A stretch of 64,000 nucleotides of DNA from Pseudarthrobacter sp. NIBRBAC000502772 (lineage in GTDB: Bacteria; Actinomycetota; Actinomycetes; Actinomycetales; Micrococcaceae), in the NCBI RefSeq assembly GCF_006517235.1, contig NZ_CP041188.1, positions 2,790,001-2,854,000 on the forward strand, in the 5' to 3' direction. Under the pieces are notes generated by a model. That model was not told where the DNA came from, did no database searches, and saw only the letters and a program-made list of their open reading frames with translations. Position numbers and translations under genes: made by a program. Positions 25,112 to 41,598 of this stretch are shown piece after piece. Within the stretch, counting starts at the first letter, position 1. Every line of letters starts with the position of its first letter.

Positions 25112-25972
25112 TTAGCGCTTGACGGCGTCCAGCTTGAGCATTTTGGCGATGACGCCGTCGAGCTCGGAGTCGTCGAAGATCTTCTTCCAGTCGTCCTTGA
25201 TGATGGTGTCCTTGCCGTACTGGATAGCGATTTCGCACGCCTCGGAGAACGGGTTGGAGCCACGGAGGGCGTTGGTCAGGGCGATCTGCACGTGGCCGAA
25301 CAGCATGGCCTTGGCCGCTTCCTCGGGAACGCCGGCAGTGTGCACGGTCTCGTGCAGCGCCTCGTTGAGCAGGGTGCCGATCATGCAGGCCACGGTTTCC
25401 ACCAGGGTGGGTTCGAGGATGGCGAGCTGCTTCACGGTGACCCAGTGGACGTCGATGACGGGGGCGTAGATGGTGCGGATGACTGCCTCGGCCGAATCGC
25501 GGGTCGCTGCCGGGGCGTCCTCGTCAATCGCGGCAACCACGTTCTGCGGGGCGCCCTCGCCGCCGAAGGTGTCGGCCCATTCTTCCTTGGTGGTGCGCTC
25601 CAGGAACACAGACGGGTGGCACGGGTGCGCAACTGCCTGGACGACGTCGTCGCGCTTGGCCAGCAGGCCGGCGTAGGCGGCGGCGGGGTCCAGGGTGAGC
25701 AGGATCGCGCCTGCCTTCATCTGGGGGACAACGCCCTCGGACACAACGCCCAGGACGGTGTCCGGGACGGCGAGGATAACCACGTCCGCGTTCTTGACGG
25801 CGTCCTCAGTGGAGGTGATGTCGCGGCCCTCGGCCTGGACGCGTTCCTGGCCGGCGGGGGAGTTCTCGGTGTAGAAGACGGTGTGGGCGCTCTTCTGGAG
25901 GTTCCGGGAAACGCGCATTCCCATTTTTCCACCGGCTCCGACGACGGCGACGGTCAATTTTTCTGCTGACAT
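25112..25972 (-). CDS. apnO: D-apionate oxidoisomerase-like dehydrogenase (ApnO)
   Basis: A 286-residue Rossmann protein (LTVAVVGAGGKMGMRVSRNL at the N-terminus, DVVILAVPDTVLG, LLTLDPAAAYAGLL, AHPCHPSVF) with an all-helical 6-phosphogluconate-dehydrogenase-like C-terminal domain (PTLVETVACMIGTLLNEALH, MLFGHVQIALTNALRG). Proteins of this build were shown to be D-apionate oxidoisomerases, turning D-apionate into 3-oxo-isoapionate with NAD+. The neighbours fit the next steps exactly. AAGGAG overlaps the end of oiaC just before the ATG. It is the last gene of the leftward operon. A related hydroxy-acid substrate is the alternative. Confidence 0.8.
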   Translation of the reverse strand: MSAEKLTVAVVGAGGKMGMRVSRNLQKSAHTVFYTENSPAGQERVQAEGRDITSTEDAVKNADVVILAVPDTVLGVVSEGVVPQMKAGAILLTLDPAAAYAGLLAKRDDVVQAVAHPCHPSVFLERTTKEEWADTFGGEGAPQNVVAAIDEDAPAATRDSAEAVIRTIYAPVIDVHWVTVKQLAILEPTLVETVACMIGTLLNEALHETVHTAGVPEEAAKAMLFGHVQIALTNALRGSNPFSEACEIAIQYGKDTIIKDDWKKIFDDSELDGVIAKMLKLDAVKR

Positions 25973-25973
25973 T

Positions 25974-26789
25974 TCACTTGCTCCTTAGGAATTCGATGCT
26001 GTGTTGGGTCCACTGGTTTTCTAGGCGGATGGTCTCCGCCTCGGAGTCCTGCCACGGCAGCCAGTGTTCGACGATCTGGTTGATACTTCTTTGGTGCGGC
26101 TGGAATTTGCTGACCATGTACTCGTAGTCGAGCAGGCCTTCGCCGAGCGGTGCGCCGGCATAGGTGAACCCGACCCAGCCGTCCTTGCGGCTGAACGCGA
26201 AGTCCTTGACGTGCATGTTCAGGACGTAAGGCGCGACGGCGTCAATCACCTCGCGCGGCATCTCCAGCGCAGCGACCGTGTTGGCCGGGTCGCTGCAGAT
26301 GCCGAGGTACGGGCTGTCCACTCCGCGGATCACGTCCAGGATCCGGGAGGTGGGCACCTGCTCGTAGGTTTCCACCGCGATCTTGACGCCCGCGGCTTCG
26401 AACTCCGGCAGGACCTCCTTGAAGATCGCCACGGCTTCCTCCGCCGTCGGGGTGTGGCCCGGGACGTTGAACATGGTCCGCAGCAGGGGCGAGCCCAGGA
26501 TGCCGGCGATGTGCAGGAATTTCCTTAGGTGCTCCGGGCGGATGCCCTTGGTGCCGAGCTCCAGGGTCATGCCCAGCCGGTCAGCTGTGGCCAGGACGGC
26601 ATCCAGTTCGGAGTCCGTCATCGCTTCCAACGGGGCATAGTCGCAGACCTGGAAGAGGTCCACGCCGAGTTCCGCGGTCCGCTCCAGCGCCTGGTGGAGG
26701 CTGAGCGGTTCGGTCACCTTGTCCGAGAGCTGCCAGAAGAAGGCGTAGCTGCTCAGGCCGATCCGTGAGCCCGGGCCGGTGCGGCTCAT
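25974..26789 (-). CDS. oiaC: 3-oxo-isoapionate decarboxylase-like TIM-barrel protein (OiaC)
   Basis: A 271-residue xylose-isomerase-like TIM barrel (AP-endonuclease-2 superfamily). Metal-site carboxylates appear in VKIAVETYEQVPT, LGICSDPANT and the histidine in LNMHVKDFAF, with LGEGLLDYEY near the end. It resembles sugar phosphate isomerases, but next to an apnO-like gene it fits OiaC, which decarboxylates 3-oxo-isoapionate to L-erythrulose. The first residues contain GLSSYAFFWQLSD, an ordinary barrel start. Its ATG overlaps the lerI stop by four bases. Confidence 0.75.
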   Translation of the reverse strand: MSRTGPGSRIGLSSYAFFWQLSDKVTEPLSLHQALERTAELGVDLFQVCDYAPLEAMTDSELDAVLATADRLGMTLELGTKGIRPEHLRKFLHIAGILGSPLLRTMFNVPGHTPTAEEAVAIFKEVLPEFEAAGVKIAVETYEQVPTSRILDVIRGVDSPYLGICSDPANTVAALEMPREVIDAVAPYVLNMHVKDFAFSRKDGWVGFTYAGAPLGEGLLDYEYMVSKFQPHQRSINQIVEHWLPWQDSEAETIRLENQWTQHSIEFLRSK

Positions 26790-27595
26790 ACCGCCACCTC
26801 CGCTGCTGCCAGCCGTGCGGCCGTCTCGTCCAGGATGGTCTTCAGTGCCTTCGGGTCATGGGCGAAGCGGCCCAGGAACAGGCCCGCGACGGCGGAGTCC
26901 AGCTTGGTGATCAGGCCGGGTCCGGCGCTGCCGCCGTAGATCACGCGGCTGTCCGCCTGGCCGGGCAGGGCGCGCAGGTGCGCGTCCAGCCCGGTGATGA
27001 CGGCGCTGATGTACTCCGGGCTTGCGGGATCCGGGGCGCCGATGGCCCACTGCGGCTCGTAGGCCACGATGGTCCGGCCGGCGGGTCCCAGCGACTGGGC
27101 GCGGTTGAGGGCGGCGTCGATCTCGGCGGTGCAATGCGTTATAGCCTCTTCCGGCGAACCGGCGTGAAGTTCCCCGACGCAAAGGACCGGGGTAAGGCCG
27201 TTGCGGTAGGCGGCGGCCGTCTTCAGCCCGATGACCGTGTCATCTTCGCCGAAGATCCGGCGGCGTTCGGCGTGGCCCACCACGGCGTAGCGTCCGCCGA
27301 GCTCGGCCACGGTCTTGCCGCCCACTTCACCGGTGAACGCGCCTTCGTCTTCCCAGAAGATGTCCTGGGCGCCCGCGGCGGCTCCTGCAGTGCCCAGGAT
27401 GCGGGCAGCTTCGGGAAGGACGGGGAGAGTAGGCAGGACAAACAGCTCAATGTCGCCGCCCTGTACTGCCGGGTGCGCGAACGCGACGCCGGCAACGTCG
27501 CGGCAATAGTCCACCGAGCGCTGGTAGCCGAAGTACATCTTCAGGCTGACGCCGATGATGGCTTTCGGTTTCTTAGCAGGAAGTGACACCCTCAT
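26786..27595 (-). CDS. lerI: triosephosphate isomerase-like L-erythrulose-1-phosphate isomerase (LerI)
   Basis: A 269-residue TIM homologue with catalytic residues in place: K19 (SLKMYFG), H108 (VVGHAERR) and E180 (AYEPQWAIG), plus the phosphate loop IYGGSAGPG. It differs from housekeeping TpiA in NWKMN -> SLKMY and GHSERR -> GHAERR, as expected of the LerI/EryH group that interconverts L-erythrulose-1-P and D-erythrulose-4-P. It is clustered with LerK and DerI homologues, with a four-base overlap to oiaC and a 23-base overlap with derI. Confidence 0.82.
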
Positions 27596-28043
27596 AGTCC
27601 TTAATCAGTGTGACCTTCTCTGCCGAGGCGGAGGTTTCGTCGAAGGTGTAGGTGAGCCATTCCTTGGCGAGGCGGCGGGCCAGTTCCAGGCCGACGACGC
27701 GCTGGCCGAAGGTGAGGACCTGGACGTCGTTGGAGAGGATGGAGCGTTCAACCGAGTAGCTGTCGTGCGCGGTGACGGCGCGGATGCCGGGAACCTTGTT
27801 CGCGGCGATGGCTACGCCGAGCCCGGTGCCGCAGACCAGCAGGGCACGGTCGGCCTTGCCGGCGGCGATAAGTTCGGCGGCGGCGATGGCCACGGACGGG
27901 TAGGGGGTGTGGCTGGTGGCATCCACCCCGACGTCGGTCACGGATTCGACCAGGTCGGAGGCCTCCAGGTCAGCCTTGAGGGCTTCCTTGTAGTCGAATC
28001 CGGCGTCGTCGGCTCCGATGACCAGGCGCAGTTTGGCGCTCAT
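27573..28043 (-). CDS. derI: RpiB-family D-erythrulose-4-phosphate isomerase (DerI)
   Basis: A 156-residue RpiB/LacAB-type isomerase. The phosphate and active-site segment [20 protein letters not shown] has C71 as candidate base, and H92 lies in [10 protein letters not shown]. The N-terminal GSDHAG motif of ribose enzymes reads GADDAG here, a His-to-Asp change also seen, to my recollection, in tetrulose-phosphate members. In this operon it should convert D-erythrulose-4-P to D-erythrose-4-P, feeding transketolase. The start ATG overlaps the lerK stop by four bases. Confidence 0.82.
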
Positions 28044-29824
28044 GCGTTCTCCTTGACTGAGTTGGTGCTGGGGGTGTTCCCGGCGGGTGATTTCTCGCCG
28101 AAGGTGTTGTGGATGGCCCGGACGATCAGGGCCATGGAGACCGCTCCGGCGTCGGGGGTTCCGAGGCTTTTCTCGGCGTGCGGGCGGGCGCGGCCCATGA
28201 GGGGCAGCAGCCCGGCGGTATCGTCGGCGGCCTGCTGCGCGACGGTGGCGGCGGCGCCCCACGCGTCGGTCAGGGAGTGCCCGGCGTGCACTCCGGCTGC
28301 CAAGGCGTCGCGGAACGGGACCAGGACGTCCACCAGGGTTTTGTCCCCGGGTTTGGCCTTGCCGAAGTCCATGATCGCGGCCGCGGCACCCGCGACTCCG
28401 GCGGCGACAGCTCCGGCGTCGGGGGCGTTGGCGTCCCCGACCGCGTCACCGACGGCCCGCAGGGCCATGCCCCAGAGCGCGCCGGACGTGCCGCCTGCCT
28501 TGTCGGACCAGGCGTCTGCGGCGAAGTGCAGCGTGGTGGCCGCGCCGGCGCCGCGGGCGACGGCGTCCGTTGCGGCTTCGACGGCGGCGCGGACGCCGCG
28601 TTCCATGCCGATGCCGTGATCACCGTCGCCGGCGATCGCGTCGATCCGGCCCAGTTCGTCAGCATTCGCTTCCACCACGGCCTTGGCGGCGCCGAGCGCG
28701 GCGAGGATGCGGACGGCACCGGCGCGGGACTCCGCCGTCGAGTCCGGGATGGAGAGTTCGACGTCGGCCACTTCGCCGCCGTCGGACGCGTCCAGTGCCG
28801 CCGCAGTGACGGCGCCGCGGCGGAAGGCCGGAGCGTCCGCCGGGGCGTTCCAGAGGGACTCGAGTGCGTCGTCGAGCCAGAACAGGGTGAGGGACGTGCC
28901 GGCCATGTCGAAGCTGGTCACGAGTTCGCCCACCTGCGGGTCCACCGCTTCCAGGCCGGCCTCGGCCAGGAGTTGGGCGACGCGGCGGTAAACCACGAAG
29001 AGTTCCTCGTACTTGACGCTGCCCAGGCCGTTGAGGATCGGCACCACGCGCCGTCGGGCAGAAGCGCCGGCGGCCTCGAGGCCGTCGGGGATTTCGGTGA
29101 GGAGCTTGGCGACCAGGAGCTCGGCGAGCTCATCCGCCGTCGGGATGGCCGTCTCGCCGATGCCGGGTTCGCCGTGGATGCCCATGCCCACGGCCATCCG
29201 GCCCTCGGGGACGGAGAACAGCGGGTGGTCCGCGCCCGGCAGGGTGCAGCCGGTGAAGGCAACGCCGAAGGAGCGGGTGCGGTCGTTGGCGCGCTCGGCG
29301 ATGGCGACGACGTCGTCCATGGAGTAGCCGGCTTCCGCTGCGGCGGCGGCGACCTTGAAGACGGTCAGGTCCCCGGCGATGCCGCGGCGTTTGGCGCGTT
29401 CGGCCAGCGGGGCGGAAGAGACGTCGTCGGTGACGGCGATGCTGCGGCAGTCGATGCCTTCCTTGCGGAGGCGGTCCTGTGCCTGGTTGAAGTGCAGGAC
29501 ATCGCCGGCGTAGTTGCCGTAGCCCAGCAGCACGCCGGCGCCGTTGTTGGATGCTTTGGCCACGTTGTAGACCTGCTGCGCCGAGGGGGAGGCGAAGAGG
29601 TTGCCCATCGCTGCGCCGTGCGCCAGGCCCTGTCCCACCAGGCCGGCGAACGCCGGGTAGTGGCCGGAGCCGCCGCCGATCACCAGGGCCACCGTGTCCG
29701 GGGTGCTCTTGGTGTTGCGTACCACGCCGCCCGAAACACGCTTCACCCAGCGGCCGTGGGAGGCAACAAAGCCTTCGATCATCTCGTCAGCGAAGGCTGC
29801 TGGTTCATTGAAAAGGCGTGTCAT
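28040..29824 (-). CDS. lerK: L-erythrulose kinase, DhaK-DhaL fusion (LerK)
   Basis: A 594-residue ATP-dependent dihydroxyacetone-kinase-type protein. The N-terminal DhaK domain has [21 protein letters not shown] and the substrate-linking H217 in [12 protein letters not shown]. The C-terminal DhaL domain has the ADP/Mg site [17 protein letters not shown] and [12 protein letters not shown]. An Ala-rich linker runs around residues 330-385. Such kinases phosphorylate dihydroxyacetone, glyceraldehyde or tetruloses. With lerI and derI beside it, L-erythrulose is the most likely substrate. It is the promoter-proximal gene of the catabolic set, preceded by a hairpin. Confidence 0.85.
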
Positions 29825-29922: not shown

Positions 29923-31287
29923 TTACGGCTCGGCGTGGTGTCCGGCCCCTGCAGGGTCAAGGGCTTCCGCCGGGACTCCATCGCTGACCTTGCCGGAGCG
30001 GCTCAGCGCCACCATGAGGATGGAGGACAGGAGCATAAAGCCGCCGACGACGAACATCGGTACCGTGTAGCTGCCGGTCAGGTCCTTGAGCCAGCCGGTG
30101 ATGTACCCGGCGCTGAATCCGGCGAGGTTGCCCACGGTGTTGATCAGGGCGATGCCGGCAGCGGCTGCCGCGCCGGTGAGGAACTGGGTGGGTACGGTCC
30201 AGAAGTTGGGCAGGGCCGCGAAGATCGACATGGCCGTGATGGTGATGACGGCGATCGTTGCGGCCGGCGAGCCGGCGAACAGTGCCAGCGGGATGCTCAG
30301 GCCGCCGAAAAGCGCCGGGAGGGCGATGTGCCAGGTCTTGACGCCGCGCTTTGTGGCGTCCTTGGACCAGAAGTACAGGGCGAACGCCGCCGGCAGGTAG
30401 GGAATGGCGGTGATGAGGCCCTTCTGAAGAACATCGAACTTGGCGCCGTAGAGGCCTTCGAAGCCGGCGATGATGGTGGGCAGGAAGAACCCGAGGGCAT
30501 ACAGGCCGTAGATGAAGCCGAAGTAGATGGCGGACAGCATCCAGACCCGGCCGTTGCCGAAGACGGTGCGGACACTGACGTGCTTGTTGCTGGCGGTGGT
30601 CGCCTTCTTTTCCGTCTCCAGGGCGCCGGTCAGCCAGGTCTTTTCCTCGGCGGTCAGCCACTTGGCCTTGGCGGGGGAGTCAGCGAGGTAGAACCAGGCA
30701 ATGATGCCGACGATGATGGCCGGAATGGCGACGCCGAAGAACATTACGCGCCAGCCTTCAAGCCCGAAGAGGCCATGCTGCTGGATGAGGAGGCCAGCCA
30801 GCGGGGCACCGATCACGGTGGTCAGCGGCTGGGCCAAGTAGAAGAGGGCGAGGATCTTGCTGCGGTGGCGGGACGGAACCCAGAGGCTCAGGAAGAGGAT
30901 GGCGCCGGGGAAGAACCCGGCCTCTGCTACGCCCAGGATGAAGCGCAGGATGTAGAGCTGCTCCACGTTGCCCACCCAGGTGAACAGGAGGGACACGATG
31001 CCCCAGCTGACCATGATGCGGGCGAGCCAGCGGCGCGCTCCGAACTTGTGCAGTGCCAGGTTGCTGGGAATCTCGAGCAGGATGTAGCCGATGAAGAAGA
31101 CGCCGGAGGCGAAGCCAAACTGGGCGGCCGAGAGGGCCAGGTCCGTGTTCATGCCGTTCGGACCGGCAAAGGAAATTGCCGTGCGGTCCAGGTAATTGAT
31201 GAAGAACATCAGGGCGACGAAGGGAACAAGCCGGATCGCCACTTTCCTGATTGCAGATTTTTCGACCACCGATTGTGTGGTGTCCAC
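29923..31287 (-). CDS. MFS transporter, anion:cation symporter type
   Basis: A 454-residue, 12-helix major facilitator of the ACS family, used for sugar acids such as galactonate, glucarate or tartrate. Signature segments are RLVPFVALMFFINYLDRTAI, FGFASGVFFIGYILLEIPSN, the loop ARRWLARIMVSWG and WVPSRHRSKILALFYLAQPL. D-Apionate is a branched C5 sugar acid, so uptake of apionate is a reasonable guess. GTG start with AGGAG nearby. It is first in the leftward operon, divergent from the FadR-type gene. Confidence 0.9.
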   Translation of the reverse strand: MDTTQSVVEKSAIRKVAIRLVPFVALMFFINYLDRTAISFAGPNGMNTDLALSAAQFGFASGVFFIGYILLEIPSNLALHKFGARRWLARIMVSWGIVSLLFTWVGNVEQLYILRFILGVAEAGFFPGAILFLSLWVPSRHRSKILALFYLAQPLTTVIGAPLAGLLIQQHGLFGLEGWRVMFFGVAIPAIIVGIIAWFYLADSPAKAKWLTAEEKTWLTGALETEKKATTASNKHVSVRTVFGNGRVWMLSAIYFGFIYGLYALGFFLPTIIAGFEGLYGAKFDVLQKGLITAIPYLPAAFALYFWSKDATKRGVKTWHIALPALFGGLSIPLALFAGSPAATIAVITITAMSIFAALPNFWTVPTQFLTGAAAAAGIALINTVGNLAGFSAGYITGWLKDLTGSYTVPMFVVGGFMLLSSILMVALSRSGKVSDGVPAEALDPAGAGHHAEP

Positions 31288-31396: not shown

Positions 31397-31434
31397 ACCA
31401 TAGAGCCGGAACTTAAATTGGTCAACCGGTTGAC
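31397..31434 (-). promoter_or_regulatory. promoter of the apionate operon with palindromic operator
   Basis: On the minus strand TTGACC (31420-31425) and TATGGT (31397-31402) are 17 bases apart. The -35 box is one arm of the perfect palindrome GTCAACCGGTTGAC (31421-31434). The 19-base string AATTGGTCAACCGGTTGAC (31416-31434) recurs exactly at 33555-33573. Confidence 0.75.
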
Positions 31435-31470
31435 GTGTGCTTTTTCGCGCGGGTCCGTTCCGCCGAATTG

Positions 31471-31484
31471 GTCAGCCGGTTGTT
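31471..31484 (+). promoter_or_regulatory. second, imperfect operator before the FadR-type gene
   Basis: AATTGGTCAGCCGGTTG at 31466-31482 repeats most of the 31416-31434 operator with one change in the first half. It ends about a dozen bases before the regulator's GTG, so binding would repress the regulator's own gene. Confidence 0.6.
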
Positions 31485-31495: not shown

Positions 31496-32239
31496 GTGAC
31501 CCTAAATTCCGCTGCCTCGGCGGCCAAGATCAGTGCCGCCCTCGGCTCCGTAGGGCAGGGTTCCGTTGTGTCGGAGGTTGCCGAGCGCCTTCTGGCCTAT
31601 TTCACAAGCGGGGATATCGCCGTCGGAACCCGGCTTCCTGCGGAGCGCCAGCTCGCGGCGTCCCTCGGTGTCGGCAGGTCTGCCGTGCGCGAGGCGTTGG
31701 CAGCCCTGGAAATCCTGGGCATCGTGATTGTCCGCCCAGGTTCAGGGACCTACCTCCGGGACGGCATTTCCGAACTCCTGCCCCGCACGCTGAGCTGGGG
31801 CCTGATGCTTGGGGCGCCCCGGACCCGAGAGCTGGTGGAGCTGCGAAGCGGCCTGGAGGTCCAGGCGGCGCAGCTGGCTGCCGACCGGATTACCGACGAA
31901 GCGCTGGACCGCATGCGCGGCAACTTGGAAATTATGGCCCACACGCTCGATGACCTTGCCGCGTTCGTCGAGGCGGACGCTTTGTTTCACCGCGAAATTG
32001 CCGAGAGTTCGGGCAATCAGGTTCTGCAGGAGCTGCTGCAGAGCATCCGGTCCCTGCTGCGGATCTGGGTGGACCGTGCGCTGACCGACGAGGGGCATGC
32101 GGCGGCGGCCCTGAGGGAACACTCGCAGATCTTTGCGGCCCTTGAAGCGCGGGACCCCGACGCCGTCACACTGACTATGCGTTCACACATGCAGACGGCT
32201 TCCAGGCGACTGCTCGCTGGCTTCGACGCATCGCAGTAG
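31496..32239 (+). CDS. FadR-subfamily GntR regulator of apionate catabolism
   Basis: A 247-residue regulator. The N-terminal winged helix is GTRLPAERQLAASLGVGRSA, then VREALAALEILGIVIVRPGS and GTYLRDG. The C-terminal FCD domain has ELVELRSGLEVQAAQLAADR, ADALFHREIAESSGNQVLQE and the late LREHSQIFAALEARD. The ligand is probably an acid of the divergent operon. Operators of the form TTGGTCAACCGG on both sides of the intergenic region fit its family. GTG start; no strong ribosome site is visible. Confidence 0.88.
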   Translation: MTLNSAASAAKISAALGSVGQGSVVSEVAERLLAYFTSGDIAVGTRLPAERQLAASLGVGRSAVREALAALEILGIVIVRPGSGTYLRDGISELLPRTLSWGLMLGAPRTRELVELRSGLEVQAAQLAADRITDEALDRMRGNLEIMAHTLDDLAAFVEADALFHREIAESSGNQVLQELLQSIRSLLRIWVDRALTDEGHAAAALREHSQIFAALEARDPDAVTLTMRSHMQTASRRLLAGFDASQ

Positions 32240-33331: not shown

Positions 33332-33440
33332 ATTCCCACCTCTCCATGCACGGTCTGCCACGCGGCCCAGCTTGTGCTGCCGGTTGCTGCTGCGAGGTTG
33401 GGGTGACGAAGCCCATTGGATAGGCCCCTGTTCAGACTAA

Positions 33441-33452
33441 GTTTACGATAAC
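33441..33452 (-). promoter_or_regulatory. LacI-type operator 1 (GTTTACGATAAC)
   Basis: GTTTACGATAAC with central CG lies 110 bases upstream of the LacI gene start. Its reverse complement occurs at 33578-33589. The copy nearer the regulator gene suggests autoregulation or looping. Confidence 0.55.
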
Positions 33453-33554: not shown

Positions 33555-33598
33555 AATTGGTCAACCGGTTGACTTGAGTTATCGTAAACCTACATACT
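33555..33598 (+). promoter_or_regulatory. promoter of the sugar ABC/GH operon with two overlapping operators
   Basis: TTGACT (33569-33574) and CATACT (33593-33598) have an 18-base spacer. The -35 lies in the right arm of GTCAACCGGTTGAC (33560-33573), part of the 19-base string shared with the apionate promoter. The LacI-type site GTTATCGTAAAC (33578-33589) fills the spacer. This implies dual control by the FadR-type and LacI-type regulators. The rest of the 358-base gap 33332-33689 holds no gene. Confidence 0.7.
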
Positions 33599-33689: not shown

Positions 33690-34949
33690 ATGCGTTTGCT
33701 TGCCAAAGGCGCTGTTGCTCTTACGGCCATTGCCGTGCTGGCCGGTTGCTCTGCCGGTGCAGGATCCGATGCATCTGGGAAAACTCAGCTGGACTGGTGG
33801 GTGATCAACCCGAGCTCCCCGTCAGCGGCGGCGGCGCAGGAAAAGGTCATCACGGATTTCCAGGCAGCCAACCCTGACATCACGATTAAGAAGACCAACC
33901 GGGCAGTCGATGCGCACAAGGATGCGCTGCGGACCTCTATCGGTACTGCCGCGGCCCCCGACATTTATGACTTCTGGGCGGGCCCGGGTCTTGGTGGCGA
34001 GTTGGTGAAGAACGGCGCCAGTGCTGACCTGAGTGCCCAGTACACCGAGTACAAGTGGCCCGAACGGTTCACGGAGGCAGCCCTCGGGCCCGTTACGCAG
34101 TACGGCGGCTACCACGGGGTTCCGTGGAAGCTCAACGGTGAAGCGATGTACTACAACAAGGCTTTGTTCGAACAGGCCGGCATCACTGAGGTGCCGAAGA
34201 CCATGGACGAACTGAACGATGCAGCCGCGAAGCTCAAGGACGCCGGAATCACGCCGATCGAGTTCGGCGGTACCGTCAACTGGCACGTCATGCGCCTGCT
34301 CGACACTTTCCTCGAGGGCTACTGCGGTTCTGACACGTTCGACAAGCTGGTCACCAGGCAGGCAAATTGGGGCCAAGAAGAGTGCGTGACGAAGTCCTTC
34401 ACGAACCTTCAGAAGTGGTCAAAGGACTACTTCAACTCCGGATTCATCGGCATCAACAATGACGAAGCCTCGTCGCTGTTCTTCAACGGCAAGGCCGCCA
34501 TGGCCCTCGAAGGAGACTGGTTCAACGCCCAGATCAAAGACAAGGCCACCAAGGCCGAGGACTATGGCGTGTTCCCCCTGCCGACCGGCACCGGCCGCAT
34601 GTACGGCTTCGAGCAGGCCATGTACATCACCAAGGACAGCAAGCACGCTGATGCTGCGGCCAAGTTCCTGGACTTCATGATGTCCACTCCGGTTCAGAAA
34701 GAAACGCTGGGCAAGTTCTCGACCCAGTCAGTGAACAAGGAAGTCAAACCCACAGGCACGGACGAACTCACCAAGTCCTGGGAAGGCATCTTCGCCGATG
34801 CAAAGGGCCTGTACATGAACAACGACCAGAACCTCACCCAGTCCCAGACCACTGAATACTGGCGCATCCAGAACCTGGTCGCCACCGGCAGCCTGGACCC
34901 GGCCAAGGCCGGGGCTGAGTTCCAGAAGTTCCTGGATTCGAGCAAATAG
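33690..34949 (+). CDS. sugar ABC transporter substrate-binding lipoprotein (family 1)
   Basis: A 419-residue extracellular binding protein. The lipoprotein signal MRLLAKGAVALTAIAVLAGC puts the lipidated Cys at residue 20. The mature part has the family-1 pattern QLDWWVINPSSPSAAAAQEK, APDIYDFWAGPGLGGELVKN, YGGYHGVPWKLNGEAMYYNK and FNGKAAMALEGDWFNAQIK. It should capture an oligosaccharide or glycoside outside the cell. Two permease genes follow, but no ATPase gene is in the operon, so a shared MsmK-type ATPase elsewhere is expected. Confidence 0.92.
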   Translation: MRLLAKGAVALTAIAVLAGCSAGAGSDASGKTQLDWWVINPSSPSAAAAQEKVITDFQAANPDITIKKTNRAVDAHKDALRTSIGTAAAPDIYDFWAGPGLGGELVKNGASADLSAQYTEYKWPERFTEAALGPVTQYGGYHGVPWKLNGEAMYYNKALFEQAGITEVPKTMDELNDAAAKLKDAGITPIEFGGTVNWHVMRLLDTFLEGYCGSDTFDKLVTRQANWGQEECVTKSFTNLQKWSKDYFNSGFIGINNDEASSLFFNGKAAMALEGDWFNAQIKDKATKAEDYGVFPLPTGTGRMYGFEQAMYITKDSKHADAAAKFLDFMMSTPVQKETLGKFSTQSVNKEVKPTGTDELTKSWEGIFADAKGLYMNNDQNLTQSQTTEYWRIQNLVATGSLDPAKAGAEFQKFLDSSK

Positions 34950-35036: not shown

Positions 35037-36002
35037 TTGTCCAAGCTCACAGCCGCGCCCCTCCAGACGCAGGTGCCTGCGCCCCGGAAAATTCCGAAAA
35101 AGCCTCTCCTGAAACGCCTTACCAAAGGTGGTTTCATCGCGGCACTGCCGTTCCTCGCTCCTGCCCTGGCCGCATACGTTGTCTTCGTCATCGGGCCGAT
35201 GGTCAGCGCCGTGCGCTTGAGCCTGTACGAGTGGTCGGGCTTCAACGCCGACCCGCAGGTGTTTGTCGGCTTCCAGAACTACGTCCGTCTCTTCACACAG
35301 GACCCGGTGTTCTGGACAGCCATGCAGAACACCATCATCTGGGTGCTGCTCTCCCTGGTAATTCCGACCACCCTGGGTCTGGCGATGGCCCTGGCCCTGA
35401 ACCGTCCGATCTTTGGACGGAATCTCTTCCGCTCTGTCTTCTACATCCCCGGCGTCCTGGCCCCGATCGCCATCGCGAACATGTGGCGCTGGATGTACAA
35501 CCCCAACTACGGGGTGTTTTCAGAGCTTGCCAAAGCCTGGCACCTCGGCGATGGCTCGGGTGTGACCTTCCTCAGCGACCCCAAATTGGCCATCTACGCT
35601 ATCTTCGCCGCTTTCGTCTGGCAGATCGCCGGCCTGAACATGGTCCTCTTCCTTGCCGGCCTGCAAAGTGTGTCCAAGGAACTTGTTGAAGCGGCCCGTC
35701 TGGACGGAGCAACCAGCTGGAAGGTCTTCCGGCACGTGACCTTTCCCGCCCTCCGCCCCACGGTCGTGGTGGTCATGGTGCTGACCATCGTCCACTCCAT
35801 CAAGGTCTTTGACCTCGTGGTCGGCATGACCGGCGGCGGTCCCGCGCAGTCCTCGCAGGTACTGGCTCTGTGGTCCTACTCCCAGTCCTTCCTGCAGCAC
35901 GACTTCGGCATGGGCAACGCGATAGCCACGGTGCTGCTCGCCGTCACCCTTGTCCTTGTCATCCCCTACCTGATCTGGTCCACCAAAGGAAACGAAGACT
36001 GA
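35037..36002 (+). CDS. sugar ABC transporter permease (MalF type)
   Basis: A 321-residue inner-membrane permease with six predicted helices. It contains GGFIAALPFLAPALAAYVVF, the segment SLYEWSGFNADPQVFVGFQN typical of MalF-like subunits, and the cytoplasmic EAA loop ELVEAARLDGATSWKVFRHV followed by TFPALRP. The start is listed as TTG (SKLTAAPLQT); the ribosome site is weak, so the true start could differ by a few codons. It overlaps the next permease by one base (TGATG). Confidence 0.92.
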   Translation: MSKLTAAPLQTQVPAPRKIPKKPLLKRLTKGGFIAALPFLAPALAAYVVFVIGPMVSAVRLSLYEWSGFNADPQVFVGFQNYVRLFTQDPVFWTAMQNTIIWVLLSLVIPTTLGLAMALALNRPIFGRNLFRSVFYIPGVLAPIAIANMWRWMYNPNYGVFSELAKAWHLGDGSGVTFLSDPKLAIYAIFAAFVWQIAGLNMVLFLAGLQSVSKELVEAARLDGATSWKVFRHVTFPALRPTVVVVMVLTIVHSIKVFDLVVGMTGGGPAQSSQVLALWSYSQSFLQHDFGMGNAIATVLLAVTLVLVIPYLIWSTKGNED

Positions 36003-36886
36003 TGAGCACCCTGACTCTCGGGCGCGCCAAGCACGCCGACGGAACGTCCCGTCCACGCCGCAACGTCGACTATGTAAGGATCGGGCTCTGGCTGGCACTG
36101 GCCGTCACCATGGTCATCTGGGCCATGCCCTTGATCTTCGTGATGTTTACATCGCTGAAGTCAGAAGCCGCGATCTTCAGCACCTCGTCCTTCGCCCTTC
36201 CGCTCGCTGCTGAATGGGAGAACTACGCCGAGGCGCTGGAAACCGGCAACCTCCTCACTGCCGGCGGCAACAGCCTTCTCATTGCCGCGATCAAGGTGCC
36301 ACTAGGCCTGCTGTTCTCGGCCGCCGCTGCCTTCGGCCTGTCCCGTATCCGTTTCAAGCACAGCAAGCTGCTGCTGGGGGCGTTCGCCCTTGGATCCATG
36401 GTTCCGATCCAGGTAGCCCTGGGACCGCTGTTCAAGACGATCCTGGACATGGGTCTGCTCAACAGCCCGATCGGCGTGATCCTCCCGTACATCGGTTTCG
36501 GCCTGCCCATTCAGATCTTCATCTTGCACGGGTTCTTCAGCGCCATCCCGAAGGAAATCGACGAAAGCGTCCGAGTGGACGGCGGCGGGAACTGGCGGCT
36601 GTTCTGGCAGATTATCCTTCCCCTGTCCAAGCCTGCCCTGGCTGCACTGTTCATCCTTGACTTCGTGGCCACATGGAATGAATACGCCATCGCCCTTGTG
36701 ATCCTGCAGGACCAGGCCGCCCAGACCATTCCTCTGGCCATCCAAGGCTTCCAGTCCCAGTTCACCAGCTCCTACGGTCCGCTGAATGCCTTCACGGTCA
36801 TGTCGATCCTCCCGGTCCTCATCGTGTACCTGCTCTTCCAGCGCTACTTCGTCGAGGGCATGTTCAGCGGCGCTGTCAAGGGCTGA
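36002..36886 (+). CDS. sugar ABC transporter permease (MalG type)
   Basis: A 294-residue partner permease. Its features are an N-terminal helix LWLALAVTMVIWAMPLIFVM, the SLKSEAAIF loop of MalG-like subunits, and the EAA loop EIDESVRVDGGGNWRLFWQI followed by ILPLSKPALAA. With the preceding permease it forms the membrane channel for the 33690 binding protein. The ATG overlaps the upstream stop by one base, so translation is coupled. Confidence 0.93.
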   Translation: MSTLTLGRAKHADGTSRPRRNVDYVRIGLWLALAVTMVIWAMPLIFVMFTSLKSEAAIFSTSSFALPLAAEWENYAEALETGNLLTAGGNSLLIAAIKVPLGLLFSAAAAFGLSRIRFKHSKLLLGAFALGSMVPIQVALGPLFKTILDMGLLNSPIGVILPYIGFGLPIQIFILHGFFSAIPKEIDESVRVDGGGNWRLFWQIILPLSKPALAALFILDFVATWNEYAIALVILQDQAAQTIPLAIQGFQSQFTSSYGPLNAFTVMSILPVLIVYLLFQRYFVEGMFSGAVKG

Positions 36887-36931: not shown

Positions 36932-38686
36932 ATGGCGACCTACACCGCAACCACTCCGCTCTTCGAGGTCATGCGCGACCCCGTCGGACACGAGATCCTG
37001 GAGCACGACGTTCCTGAACTCGCGGCCAACCCGCTGCTCCACACGCTGTACCACTACCAGCTGGGCCTGATCCTCGGCACCGAGGAATCCCTGCGCAACG
37101 ACCCGGCAAAGAAGGCCAAGATCCTCGCGAAAATCGAGGCCCTGCAGCCGTCACCCGCACCTGACCGGTCAGTCCGGCGCAACGCACCGGCAGCCGGCTA
37201 TGAGCCGGAATCGGTCGAGCGAGGCAGCGCCCGGACCGATTTCCCCGCCGAGAGCACCAAATGGCAGCAGTACGAGATCGCGCTGCAGGGCCCCTCGCAC
37301 GGAAACCCGTTCACGGACGTTGAACTGTCCGCTGACTTCACCATCAACGGTGACACTCTGACAGTTCCCGGTTTCTACGACGGCGACGGCACCTACCGGA
37401 TCCGCCTGCTCGTCCCGGCTGAGGGGGAGTGGTCCTTCACCACCCGCAGCAACGCCACGTCCCTGGACGCCATCACGGGAAGCTTCACCGCGGCAGCGGC
37501 GTCGCCGGATTCCCGCGGGGTAGTCCAGGTGGCCGACACCTTCCACTTCGCCTACGAGGACGGAACGCCCTACCTCCCGATCGGCACGACATCCTATGTC
37601 TGGACCCACCAGGGCGAGGCCCTCGAAGAACAGACCCTCCAGTCCCTGAAGACCGGGCCCTTCAACAAAATGCGCATGTGCGTCTTCCCTAAGTCCTACC
37701 TGTTCAACGAAAACGAGCCTGAAATCTACCCCTACGAGGGGAACCTTCAGGACGGTTTCGACTACACCCGGCCCAACCCCGCCTACTACAGCCACCTGGA
37801 GAAGCGGATCAGCCAGCTCGACGAGCTCGGCATCGAAGCGGACCTGATCCTCTTCCACGCCTATGACCGGTGGGGCTTCTCCAAAATGAACCCTGCAGCC
37901 GATGATCTGTACGTCAAATACGTCACCGCGCGCCTAGCCTCACACCGCAATATCTGGTGGTCCCTAGCCAACGAGTTCGACCTCATGTTCGAAAAGACCA
38001 TCGAGGATTGGGAACGCTTCGCCGCAATCGTTCAGGAGAACGACCCGACCCACCACCTGCTCTCCATCCACAACTGCCGCGAGATGTACGACCACTCACG
38101 CCCTTGGGTCACGCACTGCAGCATTCAACGGCTCGACATCTACAAGACCGCCGAAATGACCAGTCAATGGCGGCAGCAATGGCAGAAGCCTGTCGTCATC
38201 GACGAATGCGCCTACGAGGGGAACATCGACCAGGGCTGGGGAAACATCACCGGCGAGGAAATGACCCGGCGGTTCTGGGAAGGCGCGGTCCGGGGCGGTT
38301 ACGTCGGACACGGCGAAACCTATGTCCATCCGGATGATGTTCTCTGGTGGGCCAAGGGTGGGAAGCTGCGTGGCACCAGCCCCGACCGCATCGGATTCCT
38401 GCGACGCATCATGCAGGAAGCCCCCGAAGGCCACCTCGAGCCGCTGCCTGGCCACTGGGATGCTCCCAGCGCCGGAATCAAGAACGAATATGAACTGATC
38501 TATTTCGGCTTTAACCAGCCCACCTACCGGCGATTTGTCATGCCCCCGGGGATAGAGTTCCAGATTGACGTCATCGACACCTGGAACATGACCGTTGAGA
38601 CACTTCCCAGCACATTCGAAGGCCGCTTCCGCATCGAACTACCCGGCCGGCAGTACATTGCCGTACGCATGCGCGCTGTGGCTTGA
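36932..38686 (+). CDS. cytoplasmic DUF5060/apiosidase-like (GH140-related) glycoside hydrolase, copy 1
   Basis: A 584-residue protein with no signal peptide. Residues about 1-75 form a helical cap; about 115-190 are a DUF5060 beta-sandwich (GNPFTDVELSADF, TVPGFYDGDGTYRIRLLVPA); about 200-500 are a TIM barrel of the DUF4038/apiosidase group (TFHFAYEDGTPYLPIGTTSY, FNKMRMCVFPKSYLFNENEP); and the end is a DUF5605-like sandwich. Clan-A-type acids would be E348 (SLANEFDL) and E425 (VVIDECAYEGN). It follows an importer and precedes an apionate-lactonase-like gene, so release of apiose from an imported glycoside is plausible. The paralogue at 56386 shares long identical blocks. Confidence 0.8.
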   Translation: MATYTATTPLFEVMRDPVGHEILEHDVPELAANPLLHTLYHYQLGLILGTEESLRNDPAKKAKILAKIEALQPSPAPDRSVRRNAPAAGYEPESVERGSARTDFPAESTKWQQYEIALQGPSHGNPFTDVELSADFTINGDTLTVPGFYDGDGTYRIRLLVPAEGEWSFTTRSNATSLDAITGSFTAAAASPDSRGVVQVADTFHFAYEDGTPYLPIGTTSYVWTHQGEALEEQTLQSLKTGPFNKMRMCVFPKSYLFNENEPEIYPYEGNLQDGFDYTRPNPAYYSHLEKRISQLDELGIEADLILFHAYDRWGFSKMNPAADDLYVKYVTARLASHRNIWWSLANEFDLMFEKTIEDWERFAAIVQENDPTHHLLSIHNCREMYDHSRPWVTHCSIQRLDIYKTAEMTSQWRQQWQKPVVIDECAYEGNIDQGWGNITGEEMTRRFWEGAVRGGYVGHGETYVHPDDVLWWAKGGKLRGTSPDRIGFLRRIMQEAPEGHLEPLPGHWDAPSAGIKNEYELIYFGFNQPTYRRFVMPPGIEFQIDVIDTWNMTVETLPSTFEGRFRIELPGRQYIAVRMRAVA

Positions 38687-38861: not shown

Positions 38862-40757
38862 GTGACTTTCCAGCCCTTTCAGTATGACGAACCCGGAGTA
38901 TCCCGCCCCGCGCCCTCCCACCGCGCACCGTCACGCCTGGCACCCGCCCGCCGGGCACTGTCCGCGGGACCATGGTCTGCCGAGCTTGTCGGCGACGAAT
39001 TGGCCAACATCAGCTACCTTGGGCGGCCCGTCCTGCGGGCTGTTAAGGCAGTGGTCCGGGACCAGGACTGGCGCACGCCGCAGCCGACGGTCCGCACGCT
39101 TGAGGTCACGCAGGATAACGAGCGCTTGCAGGCAGGTTGGACCGTCCGCTTTGCCGGCCACGGCGTGGAGTATGACGGCCACCTGACGGCTGACTTCAGC
39201 CCTGCCGCCGTGGAGATAGCGTTCGAGGGCACAGCCCTTCACGCGTTCCGCAGCAACAGGATCGGCCTGGTGGTGTTGCACCCGCCAGCTGACGCCGGTA
39301 GGCACGTCACCGTGTCACATCCCGACGGCGGCCGCACGCCTGCGCAGTTCCCAAGCGACATCAGCCCCCACCAGCCGTTTATGGACGTCGGAGCCCTTGA
39401 ATGGGCCGACGACGGCGGCACCACCTTCCGCCTGTCGTTCACCGGCGATGTCTTCGAAACCGAGGACCAGCGCAACTGGACCGATGGTTCCTTCAAGACC
39501 TACAGCACGCCGCTGGCGCGGCCGTTCCCGGTGGACGTTGCTGCCGGAGACGCTGTGCGTCAATCGGTGCGCCTGGAGGCCATCACAGCGGACGCCGGCG
39601 CGCTGGAATCGCTGGAATCGCAAAAGGCCGGAAGGGTGGCCGCCAGTGTGGGGGGTGTGGCCGGCCACGTTCCCAAGCTGGCCGTTGTTGCAGCACCCCA
39701 CGCCGGCGTGCTTCCCCCGCTTACCGGACTGGATGCAGTCCTGGTGGAACTCATTGAAGAGACTGGCGCCACGCCCTGGTCCGGCTGGGCTGCCCGGCTG
39801 CAGGCCGCCGCGGATGAGGCCGCCGTCCATGGCGCGGGCCTGGACATCCGGGCCGTTGCCGCGGACCCCGCGGCCGCGGCGGCGGAACTCGCCCCGTACC
39901 TTTCCCAGGCCAAGCGGCTGGCGGTATTCCACCCGTCCAGCCACCTCACCGAACCGGACACCTGGCCGGAACTCAAATCTGCACTTCATGCCGCCGGCTT
40001 CCGTGGAGAGCTCCTTGCCGGTGTCCGTTCGCACTTCACGGAACTCAACCGCAACAGCGGCCGCACGCCGTCGGACTCCGACGCCCTGACCTTCAGCATC
40101 ACGCCGCAGATGCACAGCACCGAGACCGCGCACATCATCGACTCCGTTCCCATGCAACGGCTTGTGGCGCAGAACGCACTCCGTCTGGGCTGCGGAAGGC
40201 CCGTGCATGTGGGGCCGGTGACCCTGCTGCCGCGCTTCAATGCCGTATCCACGTCCGGCGCAGCCCCCGAGGCCGAAGCGGATGAACTCCAGGCGGAACC
40301 CTTTGCCGCGGCGTGGACCCTGGCGAGCATCGATGCACTCACGCTGGACGGAGTGGAATCCGTCGCCTACTTCGAGGCCTCCGGCCCGAGGGGGATTTCC
40401 GACTCCGGCGGCCGGCTCAATCCAGCCGGCGAACTCCTGAAAGAGCTCGCCGCCCTCCGGGGCAGCGACGTGCTGTCGGTCCACAACGAGGGGCAATCTT
40501 CATTGACGCTCTATCCCGTGGTGACATCCCGCGGGCTCGCCCTTTTTGCCGGGAATCTCTCCGCATCCGCCCTGGGCGTGGAGGTCCGGCTTCCGGACGG
40601 CACAGCCGCCGTGGACGGCGAATGCAGGGTTTTTGGGCAGGACCGGGGTTCGGCCATGGCCTTCACTGCCGACGACGACGACGGCGGCACGGCCGCTGGG
40701 CGGCTCACTCTGGGCCCCTGGTCGGCCGGCGTCGTCCGTTTTCCAGCCGTCCGCTGA
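38862..40757 (+). CDS. apnL: D-apionate lactonase-like protein (ApnL)
   Basis: A 631-residue protein with the domain feel of D-apionate lactonases: an N-terminal beta-sandwich (ANISYLGRPVLRAVKAVVRD, then QDWRTPQP; RIGLVVLHPPADAGRHVTVS; FPSDISPHQPFMDVGALEWA), a middle TIM-barrel-like part (ELLAGVRSHFTELNRNSGRT, SITPQMHSTETAHIIDSVPM, HVGPVTLLPRFNAV) and a C-terminal sandwich. It would hydrolyse D-apionolactone to D-apionate, upstream of ApnO. No signal peptide, so cytoplasmic. Start GTG with GAGAG upstream. Assignment is from remembered family features plus context; otherwise it would be a hypothetical protein. Confidence 0.7.
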   Translation: MTFQPFQYDEPGVSRPAPSHRAPSRLAPARRALSAGPWSAELVGDELANISYLGRPVLRAVKAVVRDQDWRTPQPTVRTLEVTQDNERLQAGWTVRFAGHGVEYDGHLTADFSPAAVEIAFEGTALHAFRSNRIGLVVLHPPADAGRHVTVSHPDGGRTPAQFPSDISPHQPFMDVGALEWADDGGTTFRLSFTGDVFETEDQRNWTDGSFKTYSTPLARPFPVDVAAGDAVRQSVRLEAITADAGALESLESQKAGRVAASVGGVAGHVPKLAVVAAPHAGVLPPLTGLDAVLVELIEETGATPWSGWAARLQAAADEAAVHGAGLDIRAVAADPAAAAAELAPYLSQAKRLAVFHPSSHLTEPDTWPELKSALHAAGFRGELLAGVRSHFTELNRNSGRTPSDSDALTFSITPQMHSTETAHIIDSVPMQRLVAQNALRLGCGRPVHVGPVTLLPRFNAVSTSGAAPEAEADELQAEPFAAAWTLASIDALTLDGVESVAYFEASGPRGISDSGGRLNPAGELLKELAALRGSDVLSVHNEGQSSLTLYPVVTSRGLALFAGNLSASALGVEVRLPDGTAAVDGECRVFGQDRGSAMAFTADDDDGGTAAGRLTLGPWSAGVVRFPAVR

Positions 40758-40842
40758 ACCACTGAACCGTTGAGCCGTTGCGCCGCGAACAATACTTTTG
40801 CGCCGCCCCGGGGGCGGTGTCACACCAACGAAAGGAGACCCC

Positions 40843-41598
40843 ATGGGTCTGCGTCTTGAAGGAAAAACAGCCCTGGTCACTGGAGCCGGATCGGGCATCG
40901 GCCTGGCCGTGGCCCAGCGTTTCGTGGCCGAAGGGGCCACCGTCTACTTCGCCGACATCAACATGGCGGCCGCCGAACGGGCCGCCGAGGCCACAGCCTC
41001 CCCGCGGGCCCGGGCCTTGCGCATGGACATCTCGGACGAGGACAGCGTGACTGCCGCCTACGCCGCCGTGGCCGGAGGCGGGCAGCTGGATGTGGTGGTG
41101 GCGAACGCCGGAGTGCAGCTCTTCGGCCAGGATGCCAAGGTGGGTGAACTGGACCTTGCGGTCTGGGAAAGGACCGTCAGCATCAACCAGCGCGGCGCCT
41201 TCCTGACCCTCAAGCACGCCGTCCGGGCCATGGAAGGCCGCGGTGGCTCCATCATCTGCACCGGCAGCCCTACCGCCGTGGTGGGCTGCGGCCAGACCTT
41301 CACGGCATACACAAGCTCCAAGGCCGGGGTCCATGGCTTGGCCCGCGTGGTCGCGGCGGACTACGCGCAGGCCGGGATCCGCGTCAACACCGTGGTTCCG
41401 GGCTACACCGAGACGCCGCTGGTGCAGGCCATCGCGGACGACCCCGTCAGCCGCGCAGGCCTGGTAGATTCCACCATGCTGGGACGGCCCGGCACGGCCG
41501 CGGACGTGGAGGGGATCATGGTGTTCCTCGCCAGCGACGACTCCTCCTACGCAACCGGGGGAGTCTTCACAGTGGACGGCGGCCTGACAGCGCTGTAA
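40843..41598 (+). CDS. SDR-family dehydrogenase, candidate sugar (apiose) dehydrogenase
   Basis: A 251-residue classical short-chain dehydrogenase. The cofactor motif is TGAGSGIG with the acidic FADIN after strand 2, which favours NAD. NAGV, the catalytic Ser in ICTGSPTAVVG, and Tyr-Lys in YTSSKAG are present, followed by RVNTVVPGYTETPLV and FTVDGG. AAAGGAG precedes the ATG. The described apiose dehydrogenase, ApsD, belongs to another family (Gfo/Idh/MocA), so oxidation of apiose to apionolactone by this SDR is only a context-based proposal. Confidence 0.85.
   Translation: MGLRLEGKTALVTGAGSGIGLAVAQRFVAEGATVYFADINMAAAERAAEATASPRARALRMDISDEDSVTAAYAAVAGGGQLDVVVANAGVQLFGQDAKVGELDLAVWERTVSINQRGAFLTLKHAVRAMEGRGGSIICTGSPTAVVGCGQTFTAYTSSKAGVHGLARVVAADYAQAGIRVNTVVPGYTETPLVQAIADDPVSRAGLVDSTMLGRPGTAADVEGIMVFLASDDSSYATGGVFTVDGGLTAL

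Follow-up and report, generated by a model that had tools for sequence, protein, structure and literature searches.

We found that an island of three operons in Pseudarthrobacter sp. NIBRBAC000502772 probably feeds plant apiosyl glycosides into central metabolism, a reading to which we give a probability of about 0.8. The island occupies positions 25112-58158 of the 64,000-nucleotide stretch that was analysed (the window), taken from a 4.80-Mb genome in one contig. Its leftward operon (31287 to 25112) encodes an MFS transporter, a DhaK-DhaL kinase, an RpiB homologue, a TIM homologue, an AP_endonuc_2 barrel and a PGDH_C dehydrogenase, with a GntR/FCD gene (31496-32239) transcribed away from it. 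On the rightward side there are a LacI gene (minus strand), an SBP_bac_1 gene, two permease genes, and genes for a DUF5060-Apiosidase-DUF5605 protein (hydrolase 1), a 631-residue protein and an SDR. A preliminary description of these genes had read them as a nearly complete route from D-apiose and D-apionate to D-erythrose-4-phosphate, split over two operons. Since every gene it claimed is an open reading frame in its place and matches the stated family (PGDH_C, AP_endonuc_2, TIM, LacAB_rpiB, Dak1 and Dak2, MFS_1, GntR/FCD, LacI, SBP_bac_1, two BPD_transp_1, DUF5060/Apiosidase/DUF5605 and SDR; scores in Table 1), the observation was confirmed, and the apiose/apionate reading gained support of a genomic rather than a biochemical kind. 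The count of two operons had to be revised: we found three, and the system reaches right to 58158. The first oxidation, which that description had left unassigned, now has a candidate in the SDR.

The genes, their families and order, their conserved linkage and the operator copies are read directly from the DNA. From these we infer every reaction of the following scheme, what the regulators and importers bind, where in the cell the hydrolases are and which functions the apiosidase-like proteins and the SDR have. A CUT1-type and a dipeptide-type ABC importer would bring in apiose-containing glycosides, probably short diglycosides, from which two cytosolic DUF5060-PF13204-DUF5605 enzymes would release D-apiose, with GH1, GH3, GH43 and GH78 enzymes removing glucose, arabinose/xylose and rhamnose. 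The SDR would convert D-apiose to D-apionolactone and the lactonase ApnL would convert this to D-apionate, which the MFS transporter would also import. ApnO would turn D-apionate into 3-oxo-isoapionate (an oxidation with hydroxymethyl migration), OiaC would decarboxylate the latter to L-erythrulose, and LerK, LerI and DerI would lead in turn to L-erythrulose-1-phosphate, D-erythrulose-4-phosphate and D-erythrose-4-phosphate. The GntR/FCD protein, acting on the palindrome TTGGTCAACCGGTTGAC[CAA], would couple the first two operons, with the LacI and TetR proteins as local regulators.

The core of this route is known, and the anatomy and linkage of the genes support the pathway reading well. What we regard as new is that an SDR probably replaces the Gfo/Idh enzyme, that the lactonase is divergent and that two modules combine an importer with hydrolases under partly shared control. 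Apiose is widespread in plants, yet the known microbial apiosidases and actinobacterial apiose users are, to our knowledge, few. Should the reading be right, the island offers testable candidates for an actinobacterial apiose dehydrogenase, for a second family of apiosidases and for a regulator that responds to apiose and has a defined operator. It also shows how apiose genes hide: their annotations read, for example, ribose-5-phosphate isomerase, triose-phosphate isomerase or hypothetical protein. Apiosidases matter for the release of aroma compounds and aglycones, according to PMC10742834. A search of open-licence PMC papers for work on apionate, apiose and the lactonase found nothing, by which we do not claim absence from print; on apiose catabolism in Arthrobacter, the same body of papers yielded only a passing mention of apiose in a review.

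Core route and shared operator

The branch ApnO-OiaC-LerK-LerI-DerI, by which D-apionate is decarboxylated, was reportedly described by Carter et al. in 2018 (Nat Chem Biol); LerK, LerI and DerI are also enzymes of tetrulose catabolism. We take the PF01261 protein of the window (53% identical to its Pantoea counterpart) to have the OiaC function of that work. The ApnO-like protein, in which the PGDH_C domain is placed after the Rossmann domain, is the sole PGDH_C match in the genome, and is 41% identical to the ApnO of R. brockwellii, encoded beside OiaX, ApsD and ApnL, and 63% identical to a Pantoea protein. No curated ApnO model matched the window protein, nor, at E up to 1e-15, the Rhizobium ApnO beside a curated OiaX; oxidoisomerase activity on D-apionate is predicted. 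A neighbouring route, with genes for D-apionolactonase, apiose dehydrogenase, apionate oxidoisomerase and 3-oxo-isoapionate kinase and decarboxylase, is described in PMC11747546 along with growth on D-apiose.

We compared the loci around the best 80 of 246 ApnL relatives, with at most 10 kb on each side and some contigs short; 38 are actinobacterial (L040, an Arthrobacter, included) and 42 are from other bacteria. ApnO is present at 21/38 actinobacterial and 18/42 other loci (39/80 in total), and an OiaC relative at 31 of these 39 (19/21 and 12/18, some of the non-actinobacterial matches being distant, with 25-36% identity). OiaX, the kinase-dependent alternative, occurs at 0/21 actinobacterial and 8/18 other ApnO loci. 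Among the 18, nine have OiaC only, five OiaX only, three both and one neither, so that OiaC and OiaX mostly replace one another, which fits OiaC as a direct decarboxylase. All six leftward genes and GntR are present at 11 of the 80 loci, all of them Arthrobacter, which, like the Pantoea and Erwinia plasmids described below, speaks against a chance arrangement. In one of the loci, L021 (Arthrobacter sp. Hiyo8), OiaC, LerK and SDR are each split in two, by frameshifts or sequencing error.

The LerK-like kinase and the MFS transporter are 66% and 75% identical to their Pantoea counterparts, the latter from a stretch in which no ApnL was read. The genome has four TIM matches, the LerI-like protein among them but the highest score belonging to a copy elsewhere, and three RpiB matches, of which the DerI-like protein (27573-28031, with a TTG start instead of the longer open reading frame) is one; the window pair may therefore be specialised copies. 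Two more RpiB and TIM pairs lie outside the window (genome positions 598429-599679 and 3136487-3141020). The first is adjacent, with an RpiB 82% identical to that of the window, and the pairs perhaps serve other tetrulose routes, e.g. erythritol or threitol. Two points speak against the core assignment. The DerI-like protein scores 140.5 bits against the DerI model NF051858 (cut-off 240) and 198 bits, above the cut-off of 168, against the generic actinobacterial model RPI_actino; the Erwinia RpiB beside the same core is likewise under the DerI cut-off (182.8 bits). In addition, 41 of the 80 ApnL loci show no ApnO, many of them contig-limited or cut at 10 kb.

The first two operons are tied together by a shared operator. 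The exact 17-mer TTGGTCAACCGGTTGAC has only two copies in the 4.80-Mb genome, one before each of these operons, and 12-mers of it recur in 14/14 MFS/OiaC-GntR intergenic stretches compared (the window and 13 relatives). When up to 3 mismatches of 20 were allowed, there were 2 matches in the window versus 0.01 expected from shuffles. Among loci L003-L037 (n = 35), a site with at most 4 mismatches was present in 26, and in 24 of these it precedes MFS/GntR, ApnL, SBP/LacI or OiaC-ApnO (in L029 and L031 no gene was assigned); no such site was found in L010, L011, L013, L017, L018, L026, L032, L033 and L036. The GntR protein, by its position, is the probable reader of this operator. Against the reading, up to 3 mismatches gave 22 matches genome-wide versus 22 for a reversed control (not split by mismatch number), so only the exact copies carry weight, and the third operon has only a half-site.

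Lactonase and first oxidation

The preliminary description had proposed a lactonase profile search of the 631-residue protein. Its single NCBIfam match was indeed to the D-apionate lactonase model NF049900 (208.5 bits, E 1.8e-61), at a score far under the equivalog cut-off of 750, which counts against the assignment, and a Pfam profile scan gave no match. Three positive controls passed the cut-off (Shinella 813, Roseibium 923 and R. brockwellii 1053 bits), and none of 197 genomes drawn from the family, our own included, did. The protein database lists PF25838 and PF25837, presumably apionate lactonase domains, for this protein and for each of 119 other proteins listed. One listed relative (P0040), 64% identical, was named D-apionolactonase by its source; most other named ones are called hypothetical protein. 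The closest relatives are from Arthrobacter and Pseudarthrobacter. An alignment of 54 relatives has 32 invariant columns, and 28 of the 31 checked are identical in four Rhizobiales ApnL references (three were scanned and pass the NF049900 cut-off; the fourth is from R. acidisoli); T200, G229 and W485 vary. We read the protein as a divergent ApnL subfamily with predicted lactonase activity. It sits 13 kb from ApnO under the same operator. The predicted model (pLDDT 89.6) had no solved relative by sequence at E up to 1, and fold searching gave weak barrel matches only (GH30; TM score by query length at most about 0.40), which we did not accept as relatives. At four Arthrobacter loci (L010, L011, L013 and L032), where neither ApnO nor a full SDR nor the operator was found, the ApnL relatives are about 50% identical and are possibly paralogues with another role.

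Could the whole set act on another branched or C4-C6 sugar acid, its ApnL and ApnO relatives having drifted to a new substrate? The identity of 28% to the Rhizobium ApnL and the 208 of 750 bits are compatible with this, as are the genome's lack of a Gfo/Idh ApsD and residue E505, nearly invariant in the 54 relatives and replaced by A, T, S and A in the four references. The conserved invariant residues point back to apionolactone, however, the neighbours ApnO, OiaC, LerK, LerI and DerI are unchanged, and relatives of the importer-hydrolase module (hydrolase about 46% identical) lie in clusters whose OiaX passes its curated cut-off. We consider such a drift very unlikely.

For the first oxidation, the SDR gene (start most likely ATG 40843) is the candidate. 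It is present at 23/38 actinobacterial and 0/42 other ApnL loci. A Gfo/Idh gene lies near ApnL at 0/38 and 18/42, respectively, standing directly before ApnL in Rhizobiales clusters, and no locus has both. The window locus has no Gfo/Idh ApsD; a Gfo/Idh enzyme elsewhere in the genome was considered and rejected, the best match having 30% identity and 75 bits versus 211-363 bits for the linked ApsD genes of the 42 other loci. In the ApnL tree (58 rows, 30 of them unlabelled; four rows have long branches and L040 is absent), the 7 SDR-linked and 21 ApsD-linked rows are split by one branch with a support of 100/100. The simplest reading would be one displacement of Gfo/Idh by SDR, within actinobacteria. 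Because the best curated matches of the SDR fall short of their cut-offs and are to generic models or to models for unrelated substrates, its substrate is predicted from context, and we propose the protein as a candidate D-apiose 1-dehydrogenase.

Three observations limit this proposal. The split between SDR and Gfo/Idh follows phylum and so counts as one event, not many. L046 and L078, two long-branched, unlabelled actinobacterial ApnL rows, are placed in the tree with the ApsD-linked ones. Finally, no full-length SDR is seen at 7 of the 21 ApnO-bearing actinobacterial loci. Of these, L028 is on a contig of 3.7 kb and the match in L004 is partial (88%); the others are L012, L015, L034, L078 and L040, the last from a strain that carries SDR on other contigs (L020 and L029). 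A substitute dehydrogenase near ApnL was sought among ten open reading frames of the SDR-less L040, L015 and L018, and none was convincing: eight encode an arginase, a xanthine/uracil permease, a stress protein, DUF3472, GH95, an AraC regulator, AHSA1 and an AMP-binding enzyme, one had no match and one, a short frame, had weak FAD-binding matches. The apiose cluster of E. coli ST131 (locus L110, 19959-21574) has two SDR genes, 30-33% identical to the window SDR; PMC13001218 supposes that two oxidoreductases of that cluster replace apiose isomerase.

Co-occurrence in the 197 family genomes is in line with the linkage. Of these genomes, 6 have ApnL, 9 PGDH_C (in one case a fragment), 3 DUF5605 and 5 the SDR (E up to 1e-80; at most 13 first-look candidates were scored for SDR per genome among the matches listed). 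Every DUF5605 genome and every SDR genome also has ApnL and PGDH_C; PGDH_C is missing from one ApnL genome, and ApnL from four PGDH_C genomes. Fisher's test, which ignores relatedness, gave 6.7e-5 for the pairing of DUF5605 and PGDH_C and 2.6e-9 for that of SDR and ApnL.

Apiosidase-like hydrolases and third operon

The hydrolase had been described as apiosidase-like, and the PF13204 match (69.4 bits, cut-off 26.5) bears this out. The PF12904 C-terminal domain of BT_1012 was not matched, DUF5060 and DUF5605 being found instead, and a pairwise search against structures at E up to 0.1 gave 4n0r alone and no GH140 entry. We do not claim GH140 membership and keep the proteins as relatives by fold and profile. 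By Foldseek the nearest structure was again 4n0r, followed by a GH5 mannanase and then by the GH140 apiosidases 8t9w and 5msy at 15-17% identity. The predicted model (pLDDT 88.7) places two sites that do not vary among 39 sequences, Asn347-Glu348 and Glu425, at strand ends, as in clan GH-A enzymes. According to PMC4032388, the GH140 enzyme BT_1012 carries Asp187 and Glu284 together with PF12904, and Asp is found in 82% of PF13204 proteins and Glu in 17.3%; judged by position, the window hydrolase would have Glu in place of Asp187.

Apiosidase activity, which we consider likely, is predicted from gene linkage, for which there are also counter-examples. Hydrolase, ApnL and SDR stand in a row in L016, L017, L020, L027 and L030. 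In R. brockwellii and R. acidisoli, a block of SBP, two permeases, hydrolase and UgpC is contiguous with OiaX, OiaK, ApnO, ApsD, ApnL, DhaK and DhaL. We also tallied plasmids by hand, taking 60 records spread over the 101 that have a hydrolase match; 18 of the 60 are outside the tally. Among the matches listed, at least 32 have ApnL within 9 kb, 2 more have ApnO within 14 kb, and 8 have neither nearby; the linked plasmids are nearly all Rhizobium and hence close to one lineage. The counter-examples are of several kinds. The hydrolase is found at only 8/38 actinobacterial and 1/42 other ApnL loci, and its family is large (6904 matches among 7999 scored), reaching Paenibacillus and Cohnella. It occurs with no nearby ApnL or ApnO in Aureimonas, Shinella oryzae, Rhizobium BG6, Martelella, R. 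tumorigenes, Ochrobactrum and Streptomyces, and in R. etli CFN 42 the apiose cluster lacks such a hydrolase within 14 kb.

Alternatively, the core might be a route for D-apionate (or apionolactone) only, with the hydrolases and importers serving other plant glycosides and being neighbours by the habit of plant-sugar islands. Pantoea and Erwinia retain the core with no ApnL in the stretch read, and in the Arthrobacter loci L012, L015, L034 and L040 neither an SDR nor a hydrolase gene adjoins the core and ApnL. Several Rhizobiales have the hydrolase module by itself, and araB, araD and araA lie just left of our island. We nevertheless regard this as unlikely: an exact operator is common to the first two operons, the five loci above have hydrolase, ApnL and SDR contiguous, the Rhizobium apiose clusters contain the same importer-hydrolase module, and the three DUF5605 genomes of the 197 all have ApnL, PGDH_C and SDR.

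That the third operon is part of the island suggests that the organism feeds on plant diglycosides. After ApnL-SDR, seven loci (L003, L005, L007, L014, L021, L022 and L035) continue with TetR, the importer and the GH3 or GH1 gene next to it and end before the rest of the operon, and in L017 the order GH1-GH3-GH43-hydrolase 2-ApnL-SDR is contiguous. No ATPase gene lies beside the CUT1-type importer; elsewhere in the genome there is a UgpC/MsiK-like ATPase, 55% identical to Rhizobium UgpC. Apiose, rhamnose and arabinose also occur in rhamnogalacturonan II, whose side-chain oligosaccharides, rather than small diglycosides, might be the target. GH78 and GH43 enzymes are at hand in the third operon, and the GH140 enzyme BT_1012 is itself a PF13204 protein. 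Nonetheless, among the window open reading frames scanned (not every one), there was no fucosidase, glucuronidase, pectate lyase or KDO/DHA enzyme, and the GH1 beta-glucosidase, above its cut-off, suits glucosides. As PMC10742834 describes, a rhamnosidase, arabinosidase or apiosidase removes the outer sugar of plant glycosides and a beta-glucosidase acts next, a stepwise hydrolysis that the enzyme set of the third operon matches. Rhamnogalacturonan II is thus an improbable target in our judgement.

A wider proposal would be that the cytosolic DUF5060-PF13204-DUF5605 family forms a novel apiosidase type, Glu-Glu and distinct from GH140, that an SDR D-apiose 1-dehydrogenase replaced Gfo/Idh once in actinobacteria and that, with the third operon, the island is a regulon for the intracellular removal of apiosyl, rhamnosyl, arabinosyl and glucosyl units from plant diglycosides. 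We give this combination an even chance.

Table 1. Features of the apiose island (positions in the window)
Feature	Position	Strand	Remarks
Whole island	25112-58158		three operons
ApnO-like D-apionate oxidoisomerase (NAD_binding_2 / PGDH_C), predicted	25112..25972	-	PF16896 193 bits
OiaC-like 3-oxo-isoapionate decarboxylase (xylose-isomerase-like TIM barrel), predicted	25974..26789	-	PF01261 66 bits
LerI-like L-erythrulose-1-phosphate isomerase (TIM family), predicted	26786..27595	-	PF00121 162 bits
DerI-like D-erythrulose-4-phosphate isomerase (RpiB family), predicted	27573..28031	-	TTG start; PF02502 144 bits
LerK-like L-erythrulose kinase (DhaK-DhaL fusion), predicted	28040..29824	-	NF011049 731.6 bits, subfamily cut-off 492; Dak1/Dak2 369/152 bits
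MFS transporter, ACS kind, probable D-apionate importer	29923..31287	-	TIGR00893 277 bits, cut-off 395; MFS_1 152 bits
Shared operator TTGGTCAACCGGTTGAC, copy 1	31418..31434	+	weaker copy at 31468-31484
GntR/FCD regulator, probable reader of shared operator	31496..32239	+	PF00392 + PF07729; by position
LacI-family regulator of rightward operon	32297..33361	-	PF00356 + PF13377
GTTTACGATAAC, candidate LacI site	33441..33452	+	reverse complement at 33578-33589; putative LacI assignment
Shared operator TTGGTCAACCGGTTGAC, copy 2	33557..33573	+	117 bases before SBP gene
SBP_bac_1 lipoprotein, CUT1-type sugar importer	33690..34949	+	PF01547 134 bits; lipobox-like LAGC in N-terminus
ABC permease 1	35037..36002	+	PF00528 82 bits
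ABC permease 2	36002..36886	+	longer open reading frame from 35870
Hydrolase 1 (DUF5060-PF13204-DUF5605)	36932..38686	+	no signal peptide seen by eye
Divergent D-apionolactonase ApnL, 631 residues, predicted	38862..40757	+	NF049900 208.5 bits
SDR dehydrogenase, candidate D-apiose 1-dehydrogenase	40843..41598	+	directly after ApnL; open reading frame from 40798
TetR-family regulator of third operon	41624..42265	-	PF00440 58 bits
Half-site TTGGTCAACCG of shared operator	42305..42315	+	core TTGGTCAAC kept in 6/7 relatives
Palindrome ACCTAGTACCCACTAGGTT, taken for TetR site	42364-42382		beside half-site TTGGTCAACCG
Third operon	42447-58158	+	importer, GH1, GH3, GH43, GH78, hydrolase 2
Dipeptide-type ABC importer	42447..47718	+	SBP_bac_5 42447-43970, permease 44046-44987, permease-ATPase 44984-46861, ATPase 46858-47718
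GH1 beta-glucosidase	47746..49227	+	TIGR03356 557 bits, cut-off 478.5
GH3 enzyme	49041..51791	+	PF00933/PF01915; NF052330 752 of 1300; true start probably near 49224
GH43 enzyme	51605..53341	+	PF04616 281 bits; true start probably near GH3 stop
GH78 alpha-L-rhamnosidase	53430..56339	+	PF17389 411 bits
Hydrolase 2 (DUF5060-PF13204-DUF5605)	56386..58158	+	69% identical to hydrolase 1

Relatives in other bacteria and neighbouring genes

The branch attributed to Carter et al. reportedly has the same enzyme families in one operon and the same predicted intermediates. The window differs from it in its actinobacterial host, in having an SDR for the Gfo/Idh ApsD and a divergent ApnL, and in its two importer-hydrolase modules, one under the same operator. 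The apiose clusters on plasmids of R. acidisoli FH23 and R. brockwellii CC275e share with the window ApnO, ApnL, DhaK/DhaL and the series of SBP, two permeases and DUF5060 hydrolase, and that of R. acidisoli shares TIM and RpiB as well. The Rhizobium side has OiaK with OiaX, the Gfo/Idh ApsD, a ribose-type importer and an own UgpC, and the window side OiaC, the SDR, the MFS transporter and the third operon.

The order of the window genes, MFS, DhaKL, TIM, TIM barrel and PGDH_C, recurs on plasmids of Pantoea sp. At-9b and Erwinia sp. E602. Identities between window and Pantoea are 75% for MFS, 66% for DhaKL, 53% for TIM, 53% for the barrel and 63% for PGDH_C, and 46% for RpiB, which in Pantoea and Erwinia lies apart from the core; no ApnL, SDR or apiosidase-like gene is annotated in the stretch read. 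Near the core of Pantoea sp. At-9b (locus L087, 13667-15790) there are a ribose-type importer and an SMP-30/gluconolactonase-family gene, which might encode another lactonase where ApnL is absent.

The window hydrolase resembles the GH140 apiosidases BT_1012 and 8t9w in its PF13204 profile and its Foldseek matches (5msy and 8t9w), and departs from them in its low identity and in the DUF5060/DUF5605 domains that replace PF12904. The closer structure 4n0r (BVU_0362 of Bacteroides vulgatus, a putative glycoside hydrolase) shares 39% identity, with a TM score of 0.88 by target length; its title names no substrate. According to PMC10711310, DUF4038 and DUF5060 genes accompany an alpha-rhamnosidase gene in Lactobacillus jensenii, and the paper guesses at an amylase.

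An operon of Monoglobus pectinilyticus (L105) combines a hydrolase of this kind with genes for a sugar isomerase, a transketolase in two halves and a glycerol-kinase-like FGGY kinase. AptA, AptB and AplK are the gene names of the E. coli ST131 apiose cluster in PMC13001218. The Monoglobus transketolase halves are 46% and 33% identical to AptA and AptB of ST131, versus 33% and 24% to a Pantoea transketolase. The kinase is 35% identical to AplK, yet passes the GlpK subfamily cut-off, and no curated model confirms an apiose role. The operon is perhaps suggestive of a non-oxidative apiose route.

To the left of the island, araB, araD and araA are adjacent at 18620-22681, each above an NCBIfam cut-off, and are followed by an aldose 1-epimerase gene at 22678-23580; this stretch belongs to a larger plant-sugar region.

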